Of a stretch of 64,000 bases of DNA, positions 12,403 through 24,597 are shown in pieces. Numbering within the stretch: the first letter of the stretch is position 1; every line of letters starts with the position of its first letter. The position numbers and the translations under genes are program-made. The notes beneath the pieces are model-generated. The model was not told where the DNA came from. It searched no databases and saw only the letters and a program-made list of their open reading frames with translations. Where the stretch lies: contig SVFV01000007.1 of the NCBI GenBank assembly GCA_015056655.1, positions 1 to 64,000 on the forward strand, written 5' to 3'. The DNA comes from Butyrivibrio sp. (GTDB lineage Bacteria > Bacillota > Clostridia > Lachnospirales > Lachnospiraceae).

Positions 12403-13773
12403 ATGAAAGAACGTGAATCAATTGGAAGCAGACTGGGGTTTATTCTGCTTTCAGCAGGATGTGCGATAGGAATCGGAAATGTGTGGCGATTCCCGTACAT
12501 GGTTGGTGAGAACGGCGGAGGACTTTTTGTACTTGTGTATGTACTGTTCCTCATGATACTCGGAGTGCCGATTCTTACAATGGAATACGCTATCGGAAGG
12601 TCGAGCAGATTAAGTGTCCTTTCAGCGTTTAAGAAGCTGGAGCCTAAAGGCAGCAAGTGGCATATTTATGGCTATTTTGCAATTGCAGGTAACTATATAC
12701 TTCTTATGTTTTACTCAGTGGTTTCAGGCTGGATATTAAGATATTTTGTTCTGTCAGTGATTGGAGCATTTGAGGGACAAAGCCCTGAGGGGATTGAAGC
12801 AATCTATCAGGAGATGATGGCAAGTCCCAGAATACTCATTACCTTTATGGGACTGACAATGCTTATAACTGTGCTCATCACATCCATGGGACTTGAGAAG
12901 GGCGTTGAGAAGATTACCAAGATAATGATGATCATGCTTATTCTCATTATGATCGGTCTTGGAATTAAATCTCTGACACTTCCTCATTCAGCTGAAGGTG
13001 TGAGATTTTATCTGATGCCCAGTATTGAGAATGTGAAAAAGGTAGGCGTTGGGAATGTACTTTATGGTGCGCTGAATCAGAGCTTTTTCACACTGAGCCT
13101 TGGAATCGGTGGTATGGAGATTTTTGGAAGCTATATCAAGAAGGACAGAAGCCTTGTGGGAGAGGCTATGCTGGTAGCAGGCCTTGATACTTTTGTCGCT
13201 ATCGTGGCAGGACTTATCACAATCCCTGCATGCTTTTCCTTTGGCGTAGCACCTGATAAGGGACCAAGCCTTATTTTCCTTTCACTGCCCAATGTATTTG
13301 CAGCTATGAAGGGTGGAAGAATTATCGGAAGTCTTTTCTTCCTGTTCATGTATTTTGCAGCTCTATCCACTATGGTTGGCGTGTTTGAAAATGATGTCAG
13401 CTTTTCAATCGATCTTTTAGGATATGACAGAAAAAAAGCTGCTCTTTTCGCAGGCATTGTCATTACACTGGGTTCAATTCCCTGTGCGCTTGGATTTAAC
13501 CTGTGGAGCAGCTTCCAGCCTCTTAAGGCAGGCAATACTATTATGGATTTAGAGGACTTCTTTGTAAGTAATCTTCTTCTTCCTATTGGTTCACTTATCT
13601 GTTGCCTGTTCTGTACAAGTAAGTACGGATGGGGCTTCGATAACTATATTGAAGAAGTAAACAGCGGCGTTGGAATTAAGATGAGCCTTGCACTGAAGTG
13701 GTACTTCAAGATTGTACTTCCTGCAATTCTCATATTCCTTGCTGTGTATGGTCTTTGGAGTTATTTTGCGTAA
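12403..13773 (+). CDS. sodium-dependent transporter, NSS/SNF family
   Basis: This 456-residue integral membrane protein starts with the NSS hallmark SRLGFILLSAGCAIGIGNVWRFPY across transmembrane segment 1 (residues 8-31), including the unwound GIGNVWRFPY region that binds sodium and substrate. Further signatures are NGGGLFVLVY and EYAIGRSS. Eleven or twelve hydrophobic segments are visible, in line with bacterial 11-TM members such as LeuT relatives and MhsT. The likely substrate is an amino acid taken up with sodium. The coding end overlaps the convergent MutS-like gene by 44 bp. The ATG follows GGTATTTGGGG and about 90 bp of leader after the upstream terminator. Confidence 0.9.
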   Translation: MKERESIGSRLGFILLSAGCAIGIGNVWRFPYMVGENGGGLFVLVYVLFLMILGVPILTMEYAIGRSSRLSVLSAFKKLEPKGSKWHIYGYFAIAGNYILLMFYSVVSGWILRYFVLSVIGAFEGQSPEGIEAIYQEMMASPRILITFMGLTMLITVLITSMGLEKGVEKITKIMMIMLILIMIGLGIKSLTLPHSAEGVRFYLMPSIENVKKVGVGNVLYGALNQSFFTLSLGIGGMEIFGSYIKKDRSLVGEAMLVAGLDTFVAIVAGLITIPACFSFGVAPDKGPSLIFLSLPNVFAAMKGGRIIGSLFFLFMYFAALSTMVGVFENDVSFSIDLLGYDRKKAALFAGIVITLGSIPCALGFNLWSSFQPLKAGNTIMDLEDFFVSNLLLPIGSLICCLFCTSKYGWGFDNYIEEVNSGVGIKMSLALKWYFKIVLPAILIFLAVYGLWSYFA

Positions 13774-15460
13774 GCATCTCGTAAGTAACACCATATTTTT
13801 CTGCGATATCCGCTGCGTAGGAGAGACCTACAGGCGGAGCAAGCTTGACCTTGTAGGAACGAACTCCATTTTCAGAAGCCACGATAAGTGATGCGGCTTT
13901 GGATTTTACGGATTCATCATTAAGTTCGTCTATGTCATAAGCCAGCTTGTGCATATGTGTGTTGTAAATTGTTCGGCAGCCCTTTCCAAGGATTGCCTTT
14001 GAGCAGTCTCTTGCTATGAAATAGCCTTCCTCAAATGATGTGGTTGAGAAGGTTTCATTAAGTAGCAGGAGACTGTTTTTTGTTGCCTCGGTAAAGAGGG
14101 TTCTAAATCTCTTGCACTCTTCGCCTAGTCTTCCGAGGTCCATTGTCTGGTCTTCATCTGCAGGGAAGTGAGTATAAATCGCATCCACAGGCAGATAATC
14201 AAAGCTTTCTCCCGGTACATAGATTCCGCCCTGAGCAAGGAAGAAGAGTTGACCGATTGCCTGAGTGATTGTGGTTTTTCCTCCTCTGTTTGCACCTGTT
14301 AGCATATACAGGCAGTGCTCGTCAGAAAAGTCCAGATCATTTGTCACGATAGGCTCACTTTCTGAAAGGTCAGCCTGAAGAAGCTTCATGTTATAGATGC
14401 CTTTTGCATCCATGGATTTATCTTTTGCTTCATCAGATGTGTATACATGGGGCTTGCAGAAGCTAAATCCCCTGGCCTGAAGCTTTTCAACATATTCAGC
14501 CCATCTGATGTAATACATGAACTCAGGCATAAGGTCGGTGATGTCGGTGATTGTGAGCATGGTGTATTTGTTAAGGACATCGCGAAGATGCTTAGCTGTA
14601 CTGCTTAGCATCCTGTCAGTAATATCATCCATGTACCGTGTGATGCTTCTTGTAGTTGTGTCAGCTTCGGATATGTACTTAAGGCTCATAAGTGCCATGG
14701 GGCTAAAAGCAGGGAATACAAAGGGCTGATCGCAGCCAAATGGCTTCTTTGCTGAAAACTCATCAAACTTGTAGTCGCCGTCCCATTCGTTACCGTTCTG
14801 GATATTGTCTTTTCCTGAAACTCTGTCTATGAAATGGCTAACGATATGTGACTTGGAAAATGGCTTGTTATTTATTGAAACCACGCCGATTCCGCATGCC
14901 TCAAAGCGCTCGTTTAAGTTGATGCCGACAGTGACACTTTTGATATTCTGAGTGTCAGCGCGAAGCATACTTATATCCTTTTTAAGACCGTCATAGCCGT
15001 TGTCAGTATAGAGTCTATGGACAAAATCCTTGAGGGCAATGAGACCTTCTGATTTGATGTCGGCAGTAGAGAGGCAATCATAGATTGAATCAAGACACTG
15101 GATGTAATCGTTGATTTCCTCAAGCCTGTGAAGAAGATCCCAGATGCCAGCTTCGTGGTCATGGTCATGCTTGTAGCTTCCGTAATCTCTAAGGAAATTT
15201 ATTCTGTCAAAAAGAGCGATTATCTTTTCTCTCATGGCGCGGTTGTGCATAAGGTCATCAAAGATGTCGCTTCTGTACTTTGCATTCTCCGGGGAGTCTG
15301 TCATCATGCTCATTACATTGTAAATATAGGTCTGCTCATTTTTTTGATCAGACAAGAGTGTGACTATGTTATCCATGCCAATATCATGGACGGTGACTTC
15401 GTTTAGTTTATTGAATTTTAGATTGTGATCTGGGAATAAAAGACTAATTTTTTCTGCCAT
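13730..15460 (-). CDS. MutS-like ATPase (MutS domain V protein)
   Basis: This 576-residue protein ends in a MutS-type ABC ATPase. The Walker A is TGANRGGKTTITQ (about residue 392), the Walker B region reads LLLLNETFSTTSFEEG, and the H-loop is YNTHMHKLAYDID. The N-terminal 380 residues are helical and lack the MutS mismatch-recognition domain with its F-x-E motif. No Smr endonuclease domain of the MutS2 kind is seen. The Walker A has ANRGGK in place of the usual PNMGGK, and the Walker B has N-E in place of D-E. Such short MutS homologues are found alone in Firmicutes and their role is unknown, so mismatch repair should not be assumed. It converges on the NSS transporter with a 44-bp tail overlap. 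Confidence 0.8.
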   Translation of the reverse strand: MAEKISLLFPDHNLKFNKLNEVTVHDIGMDNIVTLLSDQKNEQTYIYNVMSMMTDSPENAKYRSDIFDDLMHNRAMREKIIALFDRINFLRDYGSYKHDHDHEAGIWDLLHRLEEINDYIQCLDSIYDCLSTADIKSEGLIALKDFVHRLYTDNGYDGLKKDISMLRADTQNIKSVTVGINLNERFEACGIGVVSINNKPFSKSHIVSHFIDRVSGKDNIQNGNEWDGDYKFDEFSAKKPFGCDQPFVFPAFSPMALMSLKYISEADTTTRSITRYMDDITDRMLSSTAKHLRDVLNKYTMLTITDITDLMPEFMYYIRWAEYVEKLQARGFSFCKPHVYTSDEAKDKSMDAKGIYNMKLLQADLSESEPIVTNDLDFSDEHCLYMLTGANRGGKTTITQAIGQLFFLAQGGIYVPGESFDYLPVDAIYTHFPADEDQTMDLGRLGEECKRFRTLFTEATKNSLLLLNETFSTTSFEEGYFIARDCSKAILGKGCRTIYNTHMHKLAYDIDELNDESVKSKAASLIVASENGVRSYKVKLAPPVGLSYAADIAEKYGVTYEMLTQNNSKDHTQQGI

Positions 15461-15587
15461 GGCTGTATGTGTTTTGTCTCCTTATGATGACTGATGGGAT
15501 ATGTGATGATGCACCAATTCAGCATTTGTCTATAGAATTATTCTAAAGAAATAGCATGGTTTTTACAACAAAAGTATATATTTATAC

Positions 15588-15627
15588 TTGCGATAAGAAC
15601 AATTAGACGATAATATAAAATATCGTC
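15588..15627 (+). promoter_or_regulatory. promoter with overlapping palindrome, upstream of leader-methyltransferase
   Basis: TTGCGA at 15588-15593 and TAATAT at 15611-15616 are separated by 17 bp. The -10 sits inside the inverted repeat GACGATA (15606-15612) and TATCGTC (15621-15627), a likely repressor site. Transcription would start near 15623, giving a leader of about 245 nt. Confidence 0.6.
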
Positions 15628-15641
15628 AGACAAATTTAAAA

Positions 15642-15826
15642 GTTGTGTATTTGAAAATATACGACTCAATGGACATAACAGGAGTGCGAAATGAGAACAC
15701 GAGGTAACTACTCGGTGCAGCTATAAAGCTGACAGCGGTTGTATCGAGGTTAATTGTTCTAAAGCTGCCAGAAGCTGCACCGACAAATAATGAATAGAGA
15801 ATCATGAAAAATGATTCTGAGAACAA
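15642..15826 (+). promoter_or_regulatory. structured leader with alternative pairings upstream of methyltransferase
   Basis: Four stems are visible. GTTGTGTAT pairs with ATATACGAC at 15642-15665. TCGGTGCAGCT at 15712-15722 pairs perfectly with AGCTGCACCGA at 15773-15783, and this stem is extended inward by CTGACAGC/GCTGCCAG. AGAATCAT pairs with ATGATTCT at 15798-15818. TTGTTCT at 15754-15760, in the apical loop of the long stem, can pair either with AGAACA at 15694-15699 inside the leader ORF or with AGAACAA at 15820-15826. None of the stems is followed by a T run, so this is not a simple intrinsic terminator. The long stem covers codons 8-11 of the leader peptide. Together with that peptide it looks like a ribosome-controlled switch. 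Confidence 0.5.
15691..15726 (+). CDS. putative 11-residue leader peptide MRTRGNYSVQL
   Basis: A short ORF starts with ATG at 15691 and stops with TAA at 15724. It has an ideal ribosome binding site, AGGAG at 15680-15684, six bases upstream. It lies about 70 bp after the predicted transcription start and 142 bp before the methyltransferase start. The peptide begins Met-Arg-Thr-Arg, which contains the Arg-X-Arg pattern that causes macrolide-dependent ribosome arrest in ErmD-type leaders (established for MRLR). Its last codons form one arm of a long RNA stem. The ORF, its binding site and the stems are seen directly. Drug-induced arrest is inference. A chance short ORF is possible. Confidence 0.5.
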   Translation: MRTRGNYSVQL

Positions 15827-15868
15827 CATGGTAAAGCACAAAAAACATTATTTGAATAGGAGCAGATT

Positions 15869-16645
15869 ATGAATACTAATAGAATTGAAACATTAAAGAA
15901 GAACTGGCTTGAGGAAGAGAGTATAGCTCATATCAAGGGATGGGACTTTTCTCACATCCACGATAGATACAGTGAGGAGGAGAATCTCCCCTGGGATTAC
16001 GCTGAGATCATTGATAAGTACAGAACACCTGACATGAAGATTCTGGACTTTGATACAGGCGGCGGTGAGTTCCTTCTGTCACTTAAGCATCCTTATGAGA
16101 ACACAGCAGCAACTGAGGGTTATCCTCCGAATGTTGAGCTTTGTAAGAAGACACTGTTGCCCCTTGGCATAGATTTCAGGGTATGTGATGATGCTTCAGA
16201 TATTCCTTTTGAGGACAACTCTATAGACCTGTTTATAAACAGACATGGTGATTTTGATCCTAAGGAGATAGAGAGAATCCTAAAGCCCGGCGGAATCTTC
16301 ATTACTCAGCAGGTTGGTGGTGAAAACGACAGAGATCTTGTAAAGATGGTACTTCCGGAAGTAGAGGCACCCTTCCCTGACAACAATATGAAGACTCAGG
16401 TGCAGAAGTTTAAGGATGCCGGTATGGAGATCATCGATGCGGATGAGGCTTACAGGCCTATAACTTTCTCTGACATAGGAGCATTTGTGTGGTTTGCTCA
16501 CATCATTGAGTGGGAGTTCCCCGGATTTTCAGTAGATAAGTGCTTTGATAACCTTCTTAAAATGCAGGAGATTGTTGATGAGAAGGGAAGGGTAGAGGGC
16601 ACTATCCACAGATTCCTCATTGTTGCAAAGAAACCGGTTAAATGA
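15869..16645 (+). CDS. class I SAM-dependent methyltransferase behind a leader peptide
   Basis: This 258-residue protein starts at an ATG with AGGAG seven bases upstream. Motif I reads ILDFDTGGGEFLLSL (about residues 53-67), strand 2 is represented by AATEGYPPN, and the NRHGDFDPKEIERILKPGG segment holds motif IV and the following helix. FITQQVGG comes after it and the protein ends RFLIVAKKP. I know this subgroup from Firmicutes as an unannotated methyltransferase. It lacks the N-x-P-Y/F motif of Erm and other base N-methyltransferases, so it may methylate a small molecule or a different RNA or protein site. It is a single-gene unit with its own promoter, a structured leader and a terminator, a layout typical of inducible resistance genes. 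Confidence 0.8.
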   Translation: MNTNRIETLKKNWLEEESIAHIKGWDFSHIHDRYSEEENLPWDYAEIIDKYRTPDMKILDFDTGGGEFLLSLKHPYENTAATEGYPPNVELCKKTLLPLGIDFRVCDDASDIPFEDNSIDLFINRHGDFDPKEIERILKPGGIFITQQVGGENDRDLVKMVLPEVEAPFPDNNMKTQVQKFKDAGMEIIDADEAYRPITFSDIGAFVWFAHIIEWEFPGFSVDKCFDNLLKMQEIVDEKGRVEGTIHRFLIVAKKPVK

Positions 16646-16796: not shown

Positions 16797-16906
16797 TTCT
16801 TTATGATTTATTGCCGCTTTATTCGTTGAGATGATAAACGGCTAGATGATAAAATTATTGTGTTAAATTGCGTAAACACATTTTCTTATGACTTATGAGG
16901 GGGATC

Positions 16907-19900
16907 ATGGAAAAAATGAAACACTGGCAGAGCTACGTTCTGATCGTAGTCTGCGTCGCAATAAATATTCTGGGCAGAAATCTCGCTTCAAAGGTGGAAA
17001 TCCCGTTTTGGTTTGACGCGATTGGCACACTGATCGCGGCGATCCAGCTTGGACCTGTTGGTGGAGCTATAACAGGAGCTTGTCTGAACCTGTATATGGT
17101 TGCAGTTACTGGGAATATTCCAAGTATTGCCTATATTCTGGTATCTATGGCAATAGGTATTTGTGTAGGTATTACTTTCCCGAAAGAAAATAAACTCGAT
17201 GCATTTGCAATCATTGCAACAGCGGTGTTTGCCGGCTTTATTGCTGTTGTCATATCTACTCCGCTGGATATGCTTTTTTATGAAGGTCAGACAGGAAATG
17301 TCTGGGGAGACAGCCTGATCGTAATGCTATCTCAGAGTCTTAGCGTACCATGGCTATGCACTCTTTTGGGACAGGCATTTGTGGATATACCTGATAAGGC
17401 ACTGAGCGTTGTGATTGCCGTAGCTGTTATACAGATTTGCAAATGGGGCAAAAGAAAAATCTCCGGCAATAAGGAAGTAGCAGCGCTTATTATTCTTATG
17501 CTTGTAACTGAGGCTGTAGCAATTACTGCTTTGCCTGACAGAGTGCTGGCAGCAGGGAATCAGGATGCTGTAGATTTTTCTGCTGATTATGCAGCAATTG
17601 GTTACGACACAGAGGATGGCCTTGCAACCGCAGAAATCAATGCAGTTGCCCAGACAAGTGATGGTTATATATGGGCTGGAACATATTCTGGTCTTTACAG
17701 ATATGACGGCTACAAATTTGAACAGATGAACCTTGATGAGCGTATAAGTAATGTTACCCAGTTATACGTGGATAGTCAGGGAATTCTTTGGATAGGAACA
17801 AATGACAGTGGTATTGCACGTTACTCACCAAAGGATGGAAGCATAAAGTTCTATACTACTGAGGACGGACTTTCTAATAATGCTATTAGAGCTATGTGCG
17901 AGGATGGCGATGGTAATCTCTATATAGGAACTGTAACGCAGCTATCTTTGATTACAGCTGATGGACAGGCCAAGGTTTTTGAAGAAAAAGAGATTATGGG
18001 TGTCAGGAACCTTAGCTACTCAAATGGAGTAGTTGCAGGTGTTTCCAACTGGGGTGAGCTTTTCTTTATAAAGGATAAAAAGCTCTTTGGCATGACTACC
18101 ATGGAGAATGAAAACAACGTATTCTACGCAGCTGTTTCAACTGCTGACGGAGAGGAATTCGTTGTTGGAACAAGTGCGGACTTTGCAGTTAAGGTCAGAC
18201 TTCTTGAAGATGGTACAGTTAAAACAATAAAGCAGATAAAAACTTTGGGAATGGCATACTTTAACAGAATCATGTATTCAGAAAAGGATGCCGGATTTTT
18301 CTATTGCTGCGAGAATGGCCTTGGATTCATAGATAAAAAGGATAAAGTTACAGGCATGTCCACTGATGGATTCGACAGCTCTATCAGTGATGTGATCATG
18401 GATTATCAGGGAAATGTCTGGTTTGCATCAAATAAACAGGGTATTGAAAGATATTCATGGAATCCCTTCCAGGATGTTTTTGCAAAAGCTGGACTTAATC
18501 CTGGCGTTGTAAATAGCCTGCTCCTAAAGGACAATATCCTCTATGTCGGAATGGATAATGGACTTTATGGAATCGACCTTAATAGTAATACGCTTATCAC
18601 GATGCCTAAGGCTGATAAGTTTAATGGCGTCAGAGTAAGGCACCTGATGGCTGACAGCAAGGGTAGTATCTGGGTAAGCACTTATGGACAGGATGGACTG
18701 TTAGAGCTTACAGCGGATAATAACCTGAATATTTACAACGAAGGAACTGCTGGAACAGCAGGTGGAAGATTCAGATATGCTCTTGAGCTTTCTAATGGAC
18801 AGATTCTGGTAGCTAGTACCATAGCTCTTAACTATATTGAAAATGGAAAAGTGGTTAAGAAATTAACTGAAGATATGGGACTGGACACCATGATCCTTTC
18901 GCTTGTGGAGGATGAAAATGGAAATGTCCTTGCAGGCTCTGATGGTGATGGCGTTTATATCATTAAGGATGGCGAGATCATCGATATTTTAAATGAGGAA
19001 GATGGACTTGGCTCACCTGTAGTTTTGAAGGTCGTTCCATGTACAGGTGGATACCTCTTTGTAGGAAGTAACGGCATTTACTACTATGATGGAAATACTG
19101 TAACCAAGCTGAACAATTTCCCATATAGTAATAACTACGACGCATATATCACAGAGGATGGTAATGCATGGGTTATTTCTTCTGCCGGTATTTATGTGCT
19201 TAATGAAAAAGACCTTATAGCAAATGGCGATTATAATTATGAGCTCCTTAACAGAAGTAGGGGCTTCTTTACAACTCTTACAGCGAATGCAAATTATGCT
19301 GTGGATGGCGATGATCTGTATTTCTGCTGTACTGACGGTGTGAGAAAGATTTCGCTTTCAACCTACAATTCCTTTGACAATGATTATGAGATAAGGATTT
19401 CTGAGCTTTTTGCAGGTGATGAGATTATAAATGAGGAGAATGGGGTATATACAATTCCTGCTATCCAGGGACGTATACAGTTTGAGGTAGCGGTGCTCAA
19501 CTATACTCTGTCCAACCCTCTTGTAAAGATTTTCCTTGAAGGTAGTCGAGATGAAGGTATTATCTGTCACCAGAATGCTATGGAGAATCTGGTTTATACG
19601 AACCTTCCTTACGGAAATTACAAGCTCCATGTCCAGATTCTGAATCCTGGAGATGAGAGTGTTATAAAGGAAGCGGCGTTTCCTATTGTGAAGGAGTCGC
19701 AGCTTTATGAGAGAACTTATTTCCAGATGTATCTTTTGACAGTATGCATGCTGTTTATCTTCTTCCTTGGATGGCTTATCGGAAGGATCAGAAAGGGCTT
19801 CACAAACATGAAGACCTGGCAGAAGGAAGCAACCATAGATCCTATGACCGGCCTTCTTAATAAGGCTGCATCCAAGAGAGCACTTACTGAGTGCTGTAAG

Positions 19901-20749
19901 ACAAAGAAGGGTATCCTTTTGATGATCGATCTTGACAGCTTCAAGCTTGTTAATGATCTGTATGGTCATGACATGGGCGATAAGATTCTCATCAGATTCG
20001 CAGAGATAATAAGATCCTGCATCAGAGAAAATGATATCGCAGGCAGAATGGGTGGCGATGAGTTTATAGCTTATATCCATGGAAGCGCAGATGAGAGCGT
20101 TGTAGCTGAAAAGGCTAAATACATAAACGAAGAGATAGTTAAGTCTGCTAAGGAATTCATGGGAGAGGATATGAATATTCCTCTTGGTGCATCAATTGGT
20201 GCGGTATGTGCTCCTGAAGAAGGAACGGAATATGAGGATCTCTTTGGATATGCAGACAAGGCTCTGTACAACGTAAAGCAGAATGGTAAGCATGGTTATG
20301 CTATGTACAGAAAGAATAATCCCAGGATTGCTGATGATGAAAACAGTCAGATCATGGGAATTGCCGGAATACGTAAAATCCTAGGTGAGCGTAATGAGGG
20401 TAAGGGGGCTTACAAGGTTGATTTTGCAAAGCTTCAGGCAGTATACAGAACCTTTGTAAGACTGTCTAAGAGAACAAATGCAAGAGCGTGGATAGTACAG
20501 TTTGTTCTCAATCCCGATGAAGGAAAGGAACTGACGGATGAAGTAGTTGAGCTTTTTTATGAGGTACTTGCAAGTACATTAAGATCTAATGACGTAGTTG
20601 CTCCTAATGGAAAGAATCAGGTTCTTGCAGTTATGACAGATATTGATCCTTCAAATGGTCAGGCACCGATTGACCGAGTAATAAAGAAGTGGGATGAAGC
20701 ACCGGGGCATGAAGGATACACAGTAACATACGAGACAGAGGCATTATAA
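16907..20749 (+). CDS. ECF-S-like / Reg_prop-Y_Y_Y propeller / GGDEF sensor diguanylate cyclase
   Basis: The protein has about 1280 residues. The start is placed at the ATG at 16907 (MEKMKHW). An earlier ATG at 16895 lies upstream of the GAGGGGG site. Residues 1-200 hold about six membrane segments with FWFDAIGTLIAAIQLGPVGG, as in ECF transporter S components. Residues about 220-830 are Reg_prop repeats (YIWAGTYSGLYRYDG, ILWIGTNDSGIARY) forming propellers. A Y_Y_Y-like domain and a membrane segment (MYLLTVCMLFIFFLGWLIG, about 940-960) follow. The GGDEF domain has an intact GGDEF at about residue 1049 and an RxxD inhibition site (REND) five residues before it, so it should make c-di-GMP. A final 120 residues look like a second, degenerate cyclase-like domain. 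A close paralogue follows 50 bp downstream. Confidence 0.85.
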   Translation: MEKMKHWQSYVLIVVCVAINILGRNLASKVEIPFWFDAIGTLIAAIQLGPVGGAITGACLNLYMVAVTGNIPSIAYILVSMAIGICVGITFPKENKLDAFAIIATAVFAGFIAVVISTPLDMLFYEGQTGNVWGDSLIVMLSQSLSVPWLCTLLGQAFVDIPDKALSVVIAVAVIQICKWGKRKISGNKEVAALIILMLVTEAVAITALPDRVLAAGNQDAVDFSADYAAIGYDTEDGLATAEINAVAQTSDGYIWAGTYSGLYRYDGYKFEQMNLDERISNVTQLYVDSQGILWIGTNDSGIARYSPKDGSIKFYTTEDGLSNNAIRAMCEDGDGNLYIGTVTQLSLITADGQAKVFEEKEIMGVRNLSYSNGVVAGVSNWGELFFIKDKKLFGMTTMENENNVFYAAVSTADGEEFVVGTSADFAVKVRLLEDGTVKTIKQIKTLGMAYFNRIMYSEKDAGFFYCCENGLGFIDKKDKVTGMSTDGFDSSISDVIMDYQGNVWFASNKQGIERYSWNPFQDVFAKAGLNPGVVNSLLLKDNILYVGMDNGLYGIDLNSNTLITMPKADKFNGVRVRHLMADSKGSIWVSTYGQDGLLELTADNNLNIYNEGTAGTAGGRFRYALELSNGQILVASTIALNYIENGKVVKKLTEDMGLDTMILSLVEDENGNVLAGSDGDGVYIIKDGEIIDILNEEDGLGSPVVLKVVPCTGGYLFVGSNGIYYYDGNTVTKLNNFPYSNNYDAYITEDGNAWVISSAGIYVLNEKDLIANGDYNYELLNRSRGFFTTLTANANYAVDGDDLYFCCTDGVRKISLSTYNSFDNDYEIRISELFAGDEIINEENGVYTIPAIQGRIQFEVAVLNYTLSNPLVKIFLEGSRDEGIICHQNAMENLVYTNLPYGNYKLHVQILNPGDESVIKEAAFPIVKESQLYERTYFQMYLLTVCMLFIFFLGWLIGRIRKGFTNMKTWQKEATIDPMTGLLNKAASKRALTECCKTKKGILLMIDLDSFKLVNDLYGHDMGDKILIRFAEIIRSCIRENDIAGRMGGDEFIAYIHGSADESVVAEKAKYINEEIVKSAKEFMGEDMNIPLGASIGAVCAPEEGTEYEDLFGYADKALYNVKQNGKHGYAMYRKNNPRIADDENSQIMGIAGIRKILGERNEGKGAYKVDFAKLQAVYRTFVRLSKRTNARAWIVQFVLNPDEGKELTDEVVELFYEVLASTLRSNDVVAPNGKNQVLAVMTDIDPSNGQAPIDRVIKKWDEAPGHEGYTVTYETEAL

Positions 20750-20799: not shown

Positions 20800-23700
20800 A
20801 TGGAGGCAAAAAAGCTTACGAAGAATCTGATAATGATTCTTTTGTGCACGACTTTAAACATCATATTAAGAAAAGTTGCAGCCGCACTTGTTCTGCCATT
20901 TTGGCTTGATGCAGTGGGCACAATAATATGTGCCATCATGCAGGGACCAATAGGCGGGGCTATTTGCGGCTTGCTCACTAATGTCATTATTGGCTTTGGC
21001 CAGGCGGAATCTTTTGCCTACGCTTTAGTATCAATAGGCATAGGAGTTTCTATTGGGTATTTCTATCCCAAGACTCCAAAACCCAATGCTTTTGCGGTTA
21101 TTTCAACAGCTGTTTTTGCAGGACTGGTTGCAGTAGTTCTGTCCACTCCCCTTAATATGTTCTTCTATGGCGGAAGAACCGGTAATATCTGGGGAGATGG
21201 GCTTATCGACATGATTTCCAGAGATGTAAATATTCCAATAGTGTGCACTATTTTAGGGGAGGCATTTGTAGACCTTCCTGACAAAGCGTTAAGTGTTTTT
21301 ATGGCTATTGGAATAATCAGACTGTATAGAAAAGTAGTTGATAGAAGAGGCACAACTACTATGGTTTCCATTTTTGCAATTCTCATCTTTGCCAGTTTTG
21401 GAATAGATGCAAAGGCAAATAATCTTGATGCAGATTATTCCCCTGTTGTCTATGACACGGATGAGGGACTTGCAACAGTTGAGATAAATACTTTGGCACA
21501 GACTGCGGACGGATATGTCTGGGCTGGAACCTACGCAGGTCTTTATAGGTGTGATGGATCGAGGTTTGAGGAAGTAATCCTTGATGAGAGAATTAGTAAT
21601 GTAATTCAGCTTTATGTAGATTCCAGGGATTATCTGTGGATTGGAACAAATGATTCCGGACTTGCAAGATATGATATTTATACGAAGGAAGTTAAGTTCT
21701 ATGATTTCACCGCTGGTGGAGCTTCAAATTCAATAAGAACAATCAGCGAAGATGATAAAGGCAATATATTTGTCGGCACAGCTACCAAGCTTTGTATGAT
21801 TGATGGAAAAGGAAATCTCCATGTATTCAAGGAAGAGCAGATATATGGAGTAAGAAGCATGTCCTGCAATGATGGTATTGTTGCAGGAGTTACAAATGCC
21901 GGTGATCTTTTCTTTATACGAGATAAAAACATTATTGGAAAAATTCAGAATGATGAGGACAGTATCTACTACGCCGCTGTGGCAGCAGGTGACAACGGAT
22001 TATTCATGGTGGGTACTACAGAGAACTCTATATACCAGGTAAGACTGGATGATGACAAAATCATTATTGGTCATAAGTACCTTGTTGGTGACAGTAAGTA
22101 TTTTAACAAGATTTATTATTCTCAGGAAAATGGCGGATATTTCTATTGCTGCGAGGTTGGAAAGGGCTTCATAACAGAAGAGGGAGCTAGAAATGAACTT
22201 AGCGTTGATGGAATCAATAATTCAATAGCTGATGTGATGACAGACTATCAGGGAAATATCTGGTTCGCTTCTGATAAGCAGGGAATAGTCAGATATTCCA
22301 AGAATCCTTTCCAGGATGTTTTTGCAAGGGCGAAGGTAGATCCTGACATTGTAAATAGTCTGCTCATTAAGAACAGATTTTTATATGTGGGTACAAATTC
22401 CGGTCTTATAACAATTGATCTTAAGACTTATTATTCTGTGCCTATAGAGCATCCCGAGCTTTTCCAGGATGTCAGAGTCAGAGACATAATGGAAGACAGT
22501 AAGGGGAATCTGTGGGTCAGCACGTATGGTAAAAACGGCCTTGTTGAGATGCAGGAAGATGGAGATGTTGTCTGCTATAACGAGAGAACAAAGGGGACTG
22601 AAGGCGGAAGGTTCAGACTCGCTATGGAACTTTCAGATGGAAGTATAGCTGCAGCAACAAGTACTGGACTTAACTTCATACAGAATGAAGTTGTCACAAA
22701 GACCATGGGAGAAGAGGATGGAATATCCACTCAGTTTCTTAGCATGGTTGAGACGAATGATGGAGATATACTGGCAGGTAGTGATGGTGATGGTATCTAC
22801 AGAATTCGTGATGGAGAGATCGTCGAACACTATACCGAGAACCAGGGGCTTGATTCACTAGTGGTATTGAAGATTGTTCCCTGCGGCGATGATGACTATA
22901 TTTTTGTTACAAGTAATGCTCTATATTATTACAAGAATGATGCAATAACAAAGCTGAACAACTTCCCTTACAGGAACAACTATGATGTCTTCTTTAGTGA
23001 TGATGGCGATGCATGGATTACTTCCAGTGCAGGCATATTTGTTGTTGGGAAAAAGGAACTGATAGAGAATGGAGATTACAATTTTTCAGTTCTGAATAAG
23101 AGCAGAGGTCTTTATTCAAGTCTTTCTGCAAATTCAAAGTACGCATTTGACGGATCGTATCTGTATCTTTGCTGCTCAGATGGAGTTAGAAGAATACCTG
23201 TAGATACTGATGAATTCTTTAATAATGATTACGATATCAGAATTTCAAATCTTATAGCCGGAGACCATACTGTTGAGCCGAGGGAGGATGGGACCTATGT
23301 TATAGATGCAACCTCAGGTCATATAAGATTTGACGTTGCTGTGCTTAACTTTACATTGTCAAATCCCCTTTTGCATATCTATCTTGAAGGAGCTGACGAT
23401 GACGGAATCATCTGTCTTCAGAAGGATATGCAGAGCCTTAGTTATCTGAATCTCCCATATGGGGAATACAAGCTTCATGTTGATGTCATGGGAGTTGCAG
23501 GAAATGAGGTTGTAAGAAATGAGACCTTTAATGTGGTTAAGGAATCACAGATTTTCGAAAGAATGTATTTTAAAGTATACTTGTTTGTGGTATGCATGCT
23601 TTTCGTGATATTCATAGGCTGGCTGATCGGTAATATCAGAGCTGGAATAACCAGTCTTGAAAGGTGGCAGAAGGAAGCTAAGATCGATCCCATGACAGGC

Positions 23701-24597
23701 TTCTGGAATAAGGTATTTTCACAGCAGGAGCTGACAATTATCTGCAGGGAAAACAAGGGAATACTTATGATGCTTGACCTTGATAATTTCAAGCTCATAA
23801 ATGACATATATGGACATGATACCGGAGATAAGGTTCTTGTCAGCTTTGCTAAAATAGTAAGATCCTGTATCAGAGATAATGATTTCGCGGGACGCTTTGG
23901 CGGGGATGAATTTATAGTATTTATTCAGGGAACCTCAGAGGAAAGTGCTGTTGCTGAAAAAGCCCGCTACCTGAATGAAGAGATACTAAGAGTTTGTGAG
24001 GACACAGTTGGAGACGACTTTGACATCCCGATAGGCGTTTCTATTGGTGCTGTATTAGTCCCTGATGAAGGAACAGATTTTAACGAGCTGTTTAGAAAAG
24101 CAGATAAAGCGTTGTATACTGTTAAGCAGGATGGCAAGCATGGTTATTCCATGTACAAGAATTTTGAACCGACTCTGGGTTCAGGAGATGAGGTTGGAGT
24201 TTCAGATCTTGCAGGGCTTAGGATGATCCTTGGGGAGAGAGGCGACAGCAGAGGAGCTTACCTGGTTGACTTTGATAAGCTTCAGATGGTATACAGACTG
24301 TTTGTCAGAATGTCAAAACGAACCTTTGTGAACGTGTGGATTGTGCAGTTCAAGGTTGAAAAGGCTGATGGCGGAGAGGTTGAACCGGAGATTATTGATA
24401 AGTTTGTTGGAGTGCTTTCACTTAACCTTAGGAGCAATGATGTAGTTGCTCCTAATGGCAATAATAAGGTTATAGTAATCATGACAGACACAAGCTCCAG
24501 AAATGGCCAGACGCCAGTTGAGAGAATTATGAAAAAGTGGAAAGAAGCTGCTGGAGACAGTGGATATGTTCTAACCTACGAAACTGAGGATATGTAA
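20800..24597 (+). CDS. paralogous ECF-S-like / propeller / GGDEF sensor diguanylate cyclase
   Basis: This 1265-residue protein has the same domain order as its upstream neighbour and aligns along its whole length. An S-component-like membrane domain (FWLDAVGTIICAIMQGPIGG) comes first, then Reg_prop repeats (YVWAGTYAGLYRCDG, YLWIGTNDSGLARYD), a Y_Y_Y-like region and a membrane segment (VYLFVVCMLFVIFIGWLIG). The GGDEF domain has GGDEF at residue 1034 and an RDND inhibition site before it. The extra C-terminal domain (for example LRSNDVVAPNG) is also kept. The pair clearly arose by tandem duplication and has since diverged, mostly in the membrane and propeller parts, so the two probably sense different ligands. 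It is followed 10 bp later by a sensor kinase gene, which suggests one operon. Confidence 0.85.
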   Translation: MEAKKLTKNLIMILLCTTLNIILRKVAAALVLPFWLDAVGTIICAIMQGPIGGAICGLLTNVIIGFGQAESFAYALVSIGIGVSIGYFYPKTPKPNAFAVISTAVFAGLVAVVLSTPLNMFFYGGRTGNIWGDGLIDMISRDVNIPIVCTILGEAFVDLPDKALSVFMAIGIIRLYRKVVDRRGTTTMVSIFAILIFASFGIDAKANNLDADYSPVVYDTDEGLATVEINTLAQTADGYVWAGTYAGLYRCDGSRFEEVILDERISNVIQLYVDSRDYLWIGTNDSGLARYDIYTKEVKFYDFTAGGASNSIRTISEDDKGNIFVGTATKLCMIDGKGNLHVFKEEQIYGVRSMSCNDGIVAGVTNAGDLFFIRDKNIIGKIQNDEDSIYYAAVAAGDNGLFMVGTTENSIYQVRLDDDKIIIGHKYLVGDSKYFNKIYYSQENGGYFYCCEVGKGFITEEGARNELSVDGINNSIADVMTDYQGNIWFASDKQGIVRYSKNPFQDVFARAKVDPDIVNSLLIKNRFLYVGTNSGLITIDLKTYYSVPIEHPELFQDVRVRDIMEDSKGNLWVSTYGKNGLVEMQEDGDVVCYNERTKGTEGGRFRLAMELSDGSIAAATSTGLNFIQNEVVTKTMGEEDGISTQFLSMVETNDGDILAGSDGDGIYRIRDGEIVEHYTENQGLDSLVVLKIVPCGDDDYIFVTSNALYYYKNDAITKLNNFPYRNNYDVFFSDDGDAWITSSAGIFVVGKKELIENGDYNFSVLNKSRGLYSSLSANSKYAFDGSYLYLCCSDGVRRIPVDTDEFFNNDYDIRISNLIAGDHTVEPREDGTYVIDATSGHIRFDVAVLNFTLSNPLLHIYLEGADDDGIICLQKDMQSLSYLNLPYGEYKLHVDVMGVAGNEVVRNETFNVVKESQIFERMYFKVYLFVVCMLFVIFIGWLIGNIRAGITSLERWQKEAKIDPMTGFWNKVFSQQELTIICRENKGILMMLDLDNFKLINDIYGHDTGDKVLVSFAKIVRSCIRDNDFAGRFGGDEFIVFIQGTSEESAVAEKARYLNEEILRVCEDTVGDDFDIPIGVSIGAVLVPDEGTDFNELFRKADKALYTVKQDGKHGYSMYKNFEPTLGSGDEVGVSDLAGLRMILGERGDSRGAYLVDFDKLQMVYRLFVRMSKRTFVNVWIVQFKVEKADGGEVEPEIIDKFVGVLSLNLRSNDVVAPNGNNKVIVIMTDTSSRNGQTPVERIMKKWKEAAGDSGYVLTYETEDM

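Follow-up and report, generated by a model that had tools for sequence, protein, structure and literature searches.

A probable leader-peptide-controlled translational attenuator before a non-Erm methyltransferase gene of Butyrivibrio, and its relatives before other genes

What controls the methyltransferase gene that lies behind a very short ORF in a 64,000-nucleotide stretch of Butyrivibrio DNA, here called the window? The initial annotation had proposed that a ribosome pausing at codons 3-4 of the leader MRTRGNYSVQL switches RNA pairings in front of this gene, which does not encode an Erm protein. Conservation, covariation and masked folding give good support to the ribosome-controlled switch, with other pairings than those first suggested. 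The window element is probably a leader-peptide-controlled translational attenuator, in which a drug would be the trigger and the methyltransferase would counteract it. Our confidence is high for the attenuator architecture; a ribosome-targeting drug is a likely trigger, and a macrolide or ketolide specifically is a tentative and rather doubtful one for the window's copy. By comparison and computation, the basis of this reading is the conserved ORF, the covariation of the pairings, the optimum footprint and the reuse of the element before several genes. The features are the following.

15680-15684, +, Shine-Dalgarno (SD) sequence of the leader ORF, AGGAG (from the sequence; an SD-led ORF in the SVQ frame is found in 48 of 49 elements)
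15691-15726, +, leader ORF, MRTRGNYSVQL, 11 codons and the stop codon TAA (sequence, conservation)
15700-15702, +, CGA codon (Arg4), which would occupy the A site of the stalled ribosome that induces the gene (conservation, rarity, tRNA set)
15711-15722, +, arm 1, CTCGGTGCAGCT; lies within leader codons 7-11 and has arm 3 and arm 4 as alternative partners
15729-15736, +, arm 2, CTGACAGC; forms with arm 4-prime, in the ON state, an 8-pair helix with four pairs changed on both sides
15739-15748, +, arm 3, TTGTATCGAG; rivals arm 4 for arm 1 in the OFF state
15764-15771, +, arm 4-prime, GCTGCCAG; partner of arm 2, with one mismatch in the window's own copy
15773-15783, +, arm 4, AGCTGCACCGA; partner of arm 1 in the ON state and of the SD region of the methyltransferase gene in the OFF state
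15784-15792, +, lower helix, 5-prime side, CAAATAATG; closes the region from arm 4 to the SD (folds)
15846-15854, +, lower helix, 3-prime side, CATTATTTG (folds)
15859-15865, +, methyltransferase SD region, GGAGCAG; repeats part of arm 1 and is sequestered by arm 4 (duplex energy test)
15869-16645, +, class I SAM-dependent methyltransferase, 258 aa (Pfam, NCBIfam, structure model)

The 11-codon ORF and its AGGAG sequence are present as annotated. Comparison of 49 related elements showed that in 48 of them the SVQ frame holds an ORF, with a start codon and an SD sequence, that extends through arm 1, against one element for each of the other two frames, the SD test being lenient and the starts being chosen by script. 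The start position varied among these elements and the frame was kept. The peptide tail conserved across the family is x-N-x-S-V-Q-L/F, and within arm 1 the serine codon was TCG or TCA in 47 of the 49 elements, the valine codon GTG or GTA in 45 and the glutamine codon CAG or CAA in 46. The arm 1:arm 4 helix had 19 doubly changed cells, and 14 of these fell at third codon positions. Together, these codon choices and third-position changes suggest selection on the peptide in addition to that on the RNA. The leader thus contains a genuine ORF with wide conservation, and it is predicted to be translated.

The fold of positions 15623-15868 scored better than 200 of 200 dinucleotide shuffles (z -3.5), as did that of positions 15712-15882 (200 of 200; z -4.6). 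The perfect 11-bp stem between 15712-15722 and 15773-15783, described initially as a fixed stem around a switch, is real, but arm 1 has two competing pairings, and this stem is only one of them. Mutually exclusive pairings, including sequestration of the methyltransferase SD, were found by sequence comparison and folding: arm 1 with arm 3, which the initial annotation had missed, arms 1 and 2 with arm 4 and arm 4-prime, and arm 4 with the SD region. When the window's copy was folded from position 15712 the ON pairing was obtained, and when it was folded from position 15725 the OFF pairing was obtained.

The ON helix (arm 1:arm 4 with arm 2:arm 4-prime) was paired in 91.2% of the cells of 32 diverse sequences, and slid alignments of this helix paired in 18-47%. 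It contained 35 doubly changed cells versus 10.7 in shuffled alignments (0 of 500 shuffles), a comparison inflated, like all the pairing shuffle tests, by the relatedness of the sequences. The arm 1:arm 3 pairing was found in 98.7% of the cells of the 32 sequences, with 8 doubly changed cells versus 2.5 shuffled; all 8 were located in one pair, the only one changed on both sides, and the shuffles gave as many such pairs. The mean energy of the arm 4:SD duplex was -9.90 kcal over 111 distinct elements versus -7.64 kcal with the SDs shuffled (0 of 500), in a test that works mainly between arm 1 classes. The arm 3:SD control was weaker (-5.13 versus -4.43 kcal), yet it also lay under 500 of 500 shuffles. 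Because the position of arm 4 was set by its fit to arm 1, and that of arm 3 by a motif, the duplex figures for arm 1 are biased; this bias does not affect the arm 4:SD figure. In the ABC-type elements, arm 1 (CTCAGTACAG), arm 3 (TTGTACTGAG), arm 4 (CTGTACTGA) and the SD region (GGAGTACAG) co-vary. By alignment, the strongest covariation is that of arms 1 and 2 with arm 4 and that of arm 4 with the SD. Inspection of the lower helix by eye showed that L004 and L020 pair through other letters, that L029 has a mismatch and that L011 is ambiguous.

The switch pairings first proposed were those of TTGTTCT (15754-15760) with either AGAACA (15694-15699) or AGAACAA (15820-15826). These motifs are present in the window, but the exact TTGTTCT motif was found in the loop of only one of the 49 elements, the window's own, and of the seven elements with AGAACA in their leader codons only the window also has TTGTTCT; this switch, in these exact letters, was therefore rejected. 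A promoter had also been annotated, but a consensus scan of positions 15460-15900 gave no + strand site, a weaker one being possible. The same scan found no intrinsic terminator on the + strand of this interval, and attenuation by such a terminator was rejected.

The effect of the ribosome was computed by masked folding, in which the transcript was covered from its 5' end to a moving edge and the remainder was refolded. The first set comprised 38 elements, of which 16 were found via the methyltransferase (the L001-L030 set, L031 and L078) and the others by the covariance model R1; the near-copies L014, L015, L017 and L025 were left out of it, and L071 and L072 were included in the set of 49 only. 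The second set comprised 60 of 61 elements (L171 was skipped for an N) from the 80 listed pattern loci; it is largely separate from the first, and the two share some species.

The results of the masked folding showed that the SD opens at small coverage of arm 1 and closes further along. The median cost of opening the SD in the first set was 1.97 kcal with no ribosome, 0.71-0.81 kcal when one to three bases of arm 1 were covered and at least 6.2 kcal when at least nine were covered, while the corresponding medians of the second set were 2.06, 1.34-1.65 and at least 5.8 kcal, respectively. Edges +1 to +3 were those at which the SD was most often unpaired for 27 of 38 and 39 of 60 sequences. In the window's copy, the probability that the SD is unpaired increased from 0.30 without a ribosome to 0.78-0.81 at edges -6 to +3, and it was 0.14-0.26 from edge +6 onward. 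A toeprint lies 15-16 nt past the first P-site base, a distance that PMC6851288 states for AUG codons, and for a ribosome with CGA in its A site this distance would correspond to an edge of +2 to +3. In this model, the SD is thus most accessible when the covered stretch is that of a ribosome whose A site holds CGA (Arg4), which matches the pause at codons 3-4 that was first suggested.

A ribosome at a defined leader codon was thus computed to free the SD; in six of the 38 copies (L020, L031, L051, L052, L056 and L057), the cost at edge +3 was still above 3 kcal. For the 19 ABC copies in the second set, the gain over no ribosome was small, from 2.14 to 1.89 kcal. In L008, L013, L016, L026 and L043 the SD was already open without a ribosome (0.77-0.99), so that their OFF state must stem from translation of the leader or from the order of folding.

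The switch would operate as follows. Arm 1 sits in the last codons of the leader, and when the leader has been finished, or when arm 1 is paired with arm 3, arm 4 would be free to pair with the methyltransferase SD and the gene would be off. A ribosome held with CGA (Arg4) in its A site would cover about the first one to three bases of arm 1. Because the arm 1:arm 3 pairing needs those bases, it would be weakened more than the pairing of arms 1 and 2 with arm 4, so that arm 4 would be drawn off the SD and the gene translated. This scheme supposes that ribosomes do stall at the predicted site, that a ribosome-targeting drug with an early effect on elongation is the trigger, for which a macrolide or ketolide sensed through Met-Arg-X-Arg would be plausible in the window's copy, and that the methyltransferase counters the drug.

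The codon with nine bases between it and the TCG of arm 1 was CGA in 43 of the 49 elements, and the other six had CCA, TAC, TTC, TTG, CAT or AGC, no other arginine codon being found at this site. This count is quoted from the 49 non-pattern elements only, some of which were located by an arm 1 motif lacking the codon, because the pattern set had itself been selected by CGA and arm 1. The codon is rare, with 21 of the 570 arginine codons (3.7%) in 28 long ORFs of the window. The arginine anticodons detected by ARAGORN at the tRNA loci of the window's genome were TCT, ACG, CCT and CCG; among 43 tRNA stretches, three of which gave no tRNA, none encoded a tRNA-Arg with a TCG anticodon, and CGA would presumably be decoded by the ACG tRNA via wobble. 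Such decoding is slow. In some leaders CGA is only codon 2-3, by script-chosen starts, which is too early for an ordinary nascent-chain arrest. Across the family, what is conserved is the peptide tail together with a rare CGA whose distance from arm 1 is constant.

The explanations that we weighed against a ribosome-targeting drug as sensed at CGA differ from it mostly in the trigger; the first three keep the attenuator. The one that survives best, a serious contender with somewhat less than an even chance, is that any inhibitor holding ribosomes in the first few codons would induce the gene. The SD of the window's copy was open (0.63-0.81) at every tested edge from -12 to +3, the short uORF of cplR answers lincomycin and retapamulin (PMC10201436, in the part available) and the toiL uORF answers at least five drug classes (PMC12121999, likewise). 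However, the narrow optimum of most other copies, at edges +1 to +3, and the near invariance of CGA argue for a more precise position of the ribosome.

An ErmD-type sensor, in which Met-Arg-X-Arg is the arrest sequence and only macrolides and ketolides are answered, is unlikely on balance. The window's leader, with an arginine two residues before the A-site arginine (MRTR), and relatives that open with MRMR, MRIR or MKTR would fit it, as would the computed optimum, which puts Arg4 in the A site. According to the portion of PMC8298421 available, arrest by ketolides needs +X+ and the short MRLR peptide stalls in a macrolide-dependent manner; the yxjB leader uses RYR with tylosin, as described in PMC6851288 (part of the text). 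However, a strict Arg/Lys-X-Arg was found at the site in 15 of 48 leaders by script, and in 21 of 48 after six starts (L005, L008, L013, L020, L072 and L074) had been moved by eye to a better-placed upstream start. Other relatives read MKYIR, MRIER, MSR or MQIKY, the conserved residues follow the arginine rather than precede it, and the codon CGA is kept, not only the residue. The role of sensor initially given to Arg-X-Arg holds mainly for Butyrivibrio-type leaders, and the strict motif is not general in the family.

Improbable, in our estimation, is a hungry-codon sensor, in which the ribosome would wait at CGA for want of charged tRNA-Arg(ICG), with no drug on the ribosome; a tRNA nuclease, a synthetase inhibitor or a shortage of arginine would be candidate causes. 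The conservation of CGA with no other arginine codon at its site, its rarity in the window, the tRNA set, with no tRNA-Arg(UCG) found, and its occurrence at codon 2-3 before any arrest peptide exists would all suit such a sensor. Against it, the downstream genes encode exporters and modifying enzymes and not arginine functions, six relatives have other codons at the site, and the SVQ tail, which a hungry codon does not need, is also kept. Very improbable is a structured RNA without a regulatory ribosome, in which the ORF is incidental and kept because arm 1 is, for although the conservation of arm 1 alone fixes much of codons 7-10, the predominance of the SVQ frame, the third-position changes, the serine and valine codons and the variable start with a constant frame all argue against it.

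By mechanism, the window element would belong among the ribosome-stalling translational attenuators such as those of erm, yxjB, cplR and toiL, provided that the ribosome stalls; it is set apart from these by the leader and arms, by reuse ahead of four types of gene and by the CGA codon. Comparison with yxjB (RlmA-II) of Bacillus subtilis (PMC6851288, as far as its text was available) showed a likeness in the short +X+ leader, the SD-sequestering hairpin and the methyltransferase gene. The yxjB leader, in which a tylosin-stalled RYR acts on that hairpin, adds a NusA-dependent terminator and NusG pausing; on the + strand around the window's leader no terminator was found. ErmDL (Arg-Leu-Arg) is similar in its Arg-X-Arg near the start, with the second arginine in the A site, and in the refolding of its mRNA (PMC8298421, in part), but the window's enzyme is not an Erm, its family keeps the SVQ tail and CGA, and more than half of its leaders are without a strict +X+. 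The attenuators of the ABC-F genes cplR, vmlR and vga share a very short uORF, SD sequestration and, for cplR, occurrence in Clostridia; compared by description, cplR adds an intrinsic terminator, has the uORF consensus MR[I/M] and controls different genes (PMC10201436, partial text). The bmrB leader of BmrCD likewise controls an ABC exporter and answers ribosome inhibitors, but it has 53 codons, acts by transcriptional attenuation and carries no SVQ string in the main text of its description (PMC4191407, sections available). For toiL the likeness is one of mechanism, that of a ribosome-stalling translational attenuator (PMC12121999, available portion).

The methyltransferase matched Pfam Methyltransf_11 and reached no NCBIfam cut-off. 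Its only Erm match, to the guanine-748 N1 model Erm(32), had an E value of 0.2 and 11.1 bits versus a cut-off of 550, which bears out the statement that it is not an Erm. Membership of RlmA/TlrB (23S rRNA G745/G748) was excluded as well, at 20.8 bits versus a cut-off of 303, the best RlmA structure match having an E value of 0.003; this also separates it from the product of yxjB. RlmA and TlrB have N-terminal zinc-binding cysteines, and no cysteine is present in residues 1-44 of the window's enzyme. The AlphaFold model, made with 37 sequences, shows a class I fold at high confidence (mean pLDDT 95.3). The best Foldseek matches were generic class I methyltransferases, with RlmA(I) third at 14% identity, and were too generic to give a function. 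Comparisons with family models and structures found no characterised close relative.

Matches to the methyltransferase at E <= 0.001 were found in 58 of 145 relatives, many of the weaker ones being other methyltransferases. The leader was found within 420 bases upstream in 18 of the 30 best methyltransferase loci. The other 12 loci were without a leader, several apparently with another gene directly upstream (by eye). The model R1 matched 40 of 392 genomes of the order at E <= 1 and 24 at E <= 1e-3, of which five had built R1; 14 of the 40, with E above 0.0035, were left out as leaders. Within the genus, 20 of 79 genomes gave a match at E <= 0.1, and 17 of these had contributed to R1. A second model, R2, matched 8 of 391 genomes of the class (three in the model) and 7 of 398 of the phylum (two in the model) at E <= 0.05; one of the latter, L092 (E 0.04), was rejected as a leader by eye. 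A pattern scan of named genomes gave at least 120 stretches, and the 80 listed with names include Butyrivibrio, Roseburia hominis, Lacrimispora, Acetatifactor muris, Eisenbergiella tayi, Cuneatibacter, Longibaculum, Maledivibacter, Desulfosporosinus and Paenibacillus turicensis. One good copy is present in the genome from which the window comes, the second match having an E value of 8.8. Rfam at gathering score found one tRNA only in the whole window and left the leader unmatched, and at E <= 0.5 it gave, for six loci, two unrelated weak matches outside the leader; membership of an Rfam family was thus ruled out. In the literature searched, whose coverage left out most subscription journals and preprints, we found no published description of this leader, and no paper matched the SVQ peptide strings.

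The element precedes four unrelated gene types, encoding the methyltransferase, an ABC exporter, radical SAM proteins and MFS transporters. Pfam matches, for one or a few examples per type, were ABC_tran, Radical_SAM (three proteins, with SPASM in one) and MFS_1. Among the 49 non-pattern elements, the methyltransferase was downstream of 36, the ABC exporter of 6, radical SAM proteins of 4 and MFS transporters of 2, with none of the four assigned to one, the methyltransferase share being inflated because 16 of the 49 were found through the methyltransferase itself. Among the 100 pattern-found elements with an arm 3 and room downstream, the respective numbers were 62, 31, 4 and 0, with three unassigned. 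One of the four types was thus downstream of 48 of 49 and 97 of 100 elements. The 20 other pattern stretches were left out for want of a recognisable arm 3 (11, including L136 and L200, which look real by eye) or for lying near a contig end (9).

Whether these 'SVQ leaders' form an undescribed, phylum-wide family that senses ribosomes at a rare CGA, is reused before at least four unrelated gene families and together makes up an inducible, largely uncharacterised gut and rumen resistance set against a ribosome-targeting compound is, in our judgement, evenly balanced. If it were so, one leader-RNA module would flag poorly annotated genes as responsive to ribosome inhibitors, provide a sequence handle with which Bacillota of the gut and rumen could be searched for new resistance-like determinants, and show the reuse of an attenuator across unrelated genes. 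It would also raise the testable question of why a rare arginine codon, and not arginine itself, is kept at the predicted pause site.

Several observations were made on individual loci. L071, L102 and L145 are apparent leaders whose downstream gene was lost, L072 apparently precedes a truncated gene, and the reading frame behind L205 is none of the four types. Radical SAM proteins are found behind L044, L045, L053, L131, L138, L204 and L211; those of L138 and L211 show weak similarity, under curated cut-offs, to YydG epimerase and viperin models, and L086 is of a different radical SAM type. PADLOC matches to mad2 (methyltransferase, E 2e-7), mad3 (ABC protein, E 2e-26) and pVip (one radical SAM protein, E 8e-9) look like shared domains and were rejected, and none was found for the MFS transporter.

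Homologues of the methyltransferase also occur on plasmids, in 59 matching records, of which 29 are from Lactiplantibacillus and 29 are typed as mobilizable; among the matches listed, the Lactiplantibacillus homologues are about 37-41% identical. The copy on a Lactiplantibacillus plantarum plasmid (L078) has the leader MQIKYDNCSVQL and, by eye, matching arms. Relatives of the ABC exporter with 39% identity are carried by Melissococcus plutonius plasmids. In the window, a 576-aa protein with MutS domain V is encoded at 13730-15460 on the - strand and transcribed away from the leader, and positions 16895-20749 and 20800-24597 encode adjacent similar giant proteins of 1284 and 1265 aa, which look by eye like propeller and GGDEF sensors and are probably a tandem duplication.
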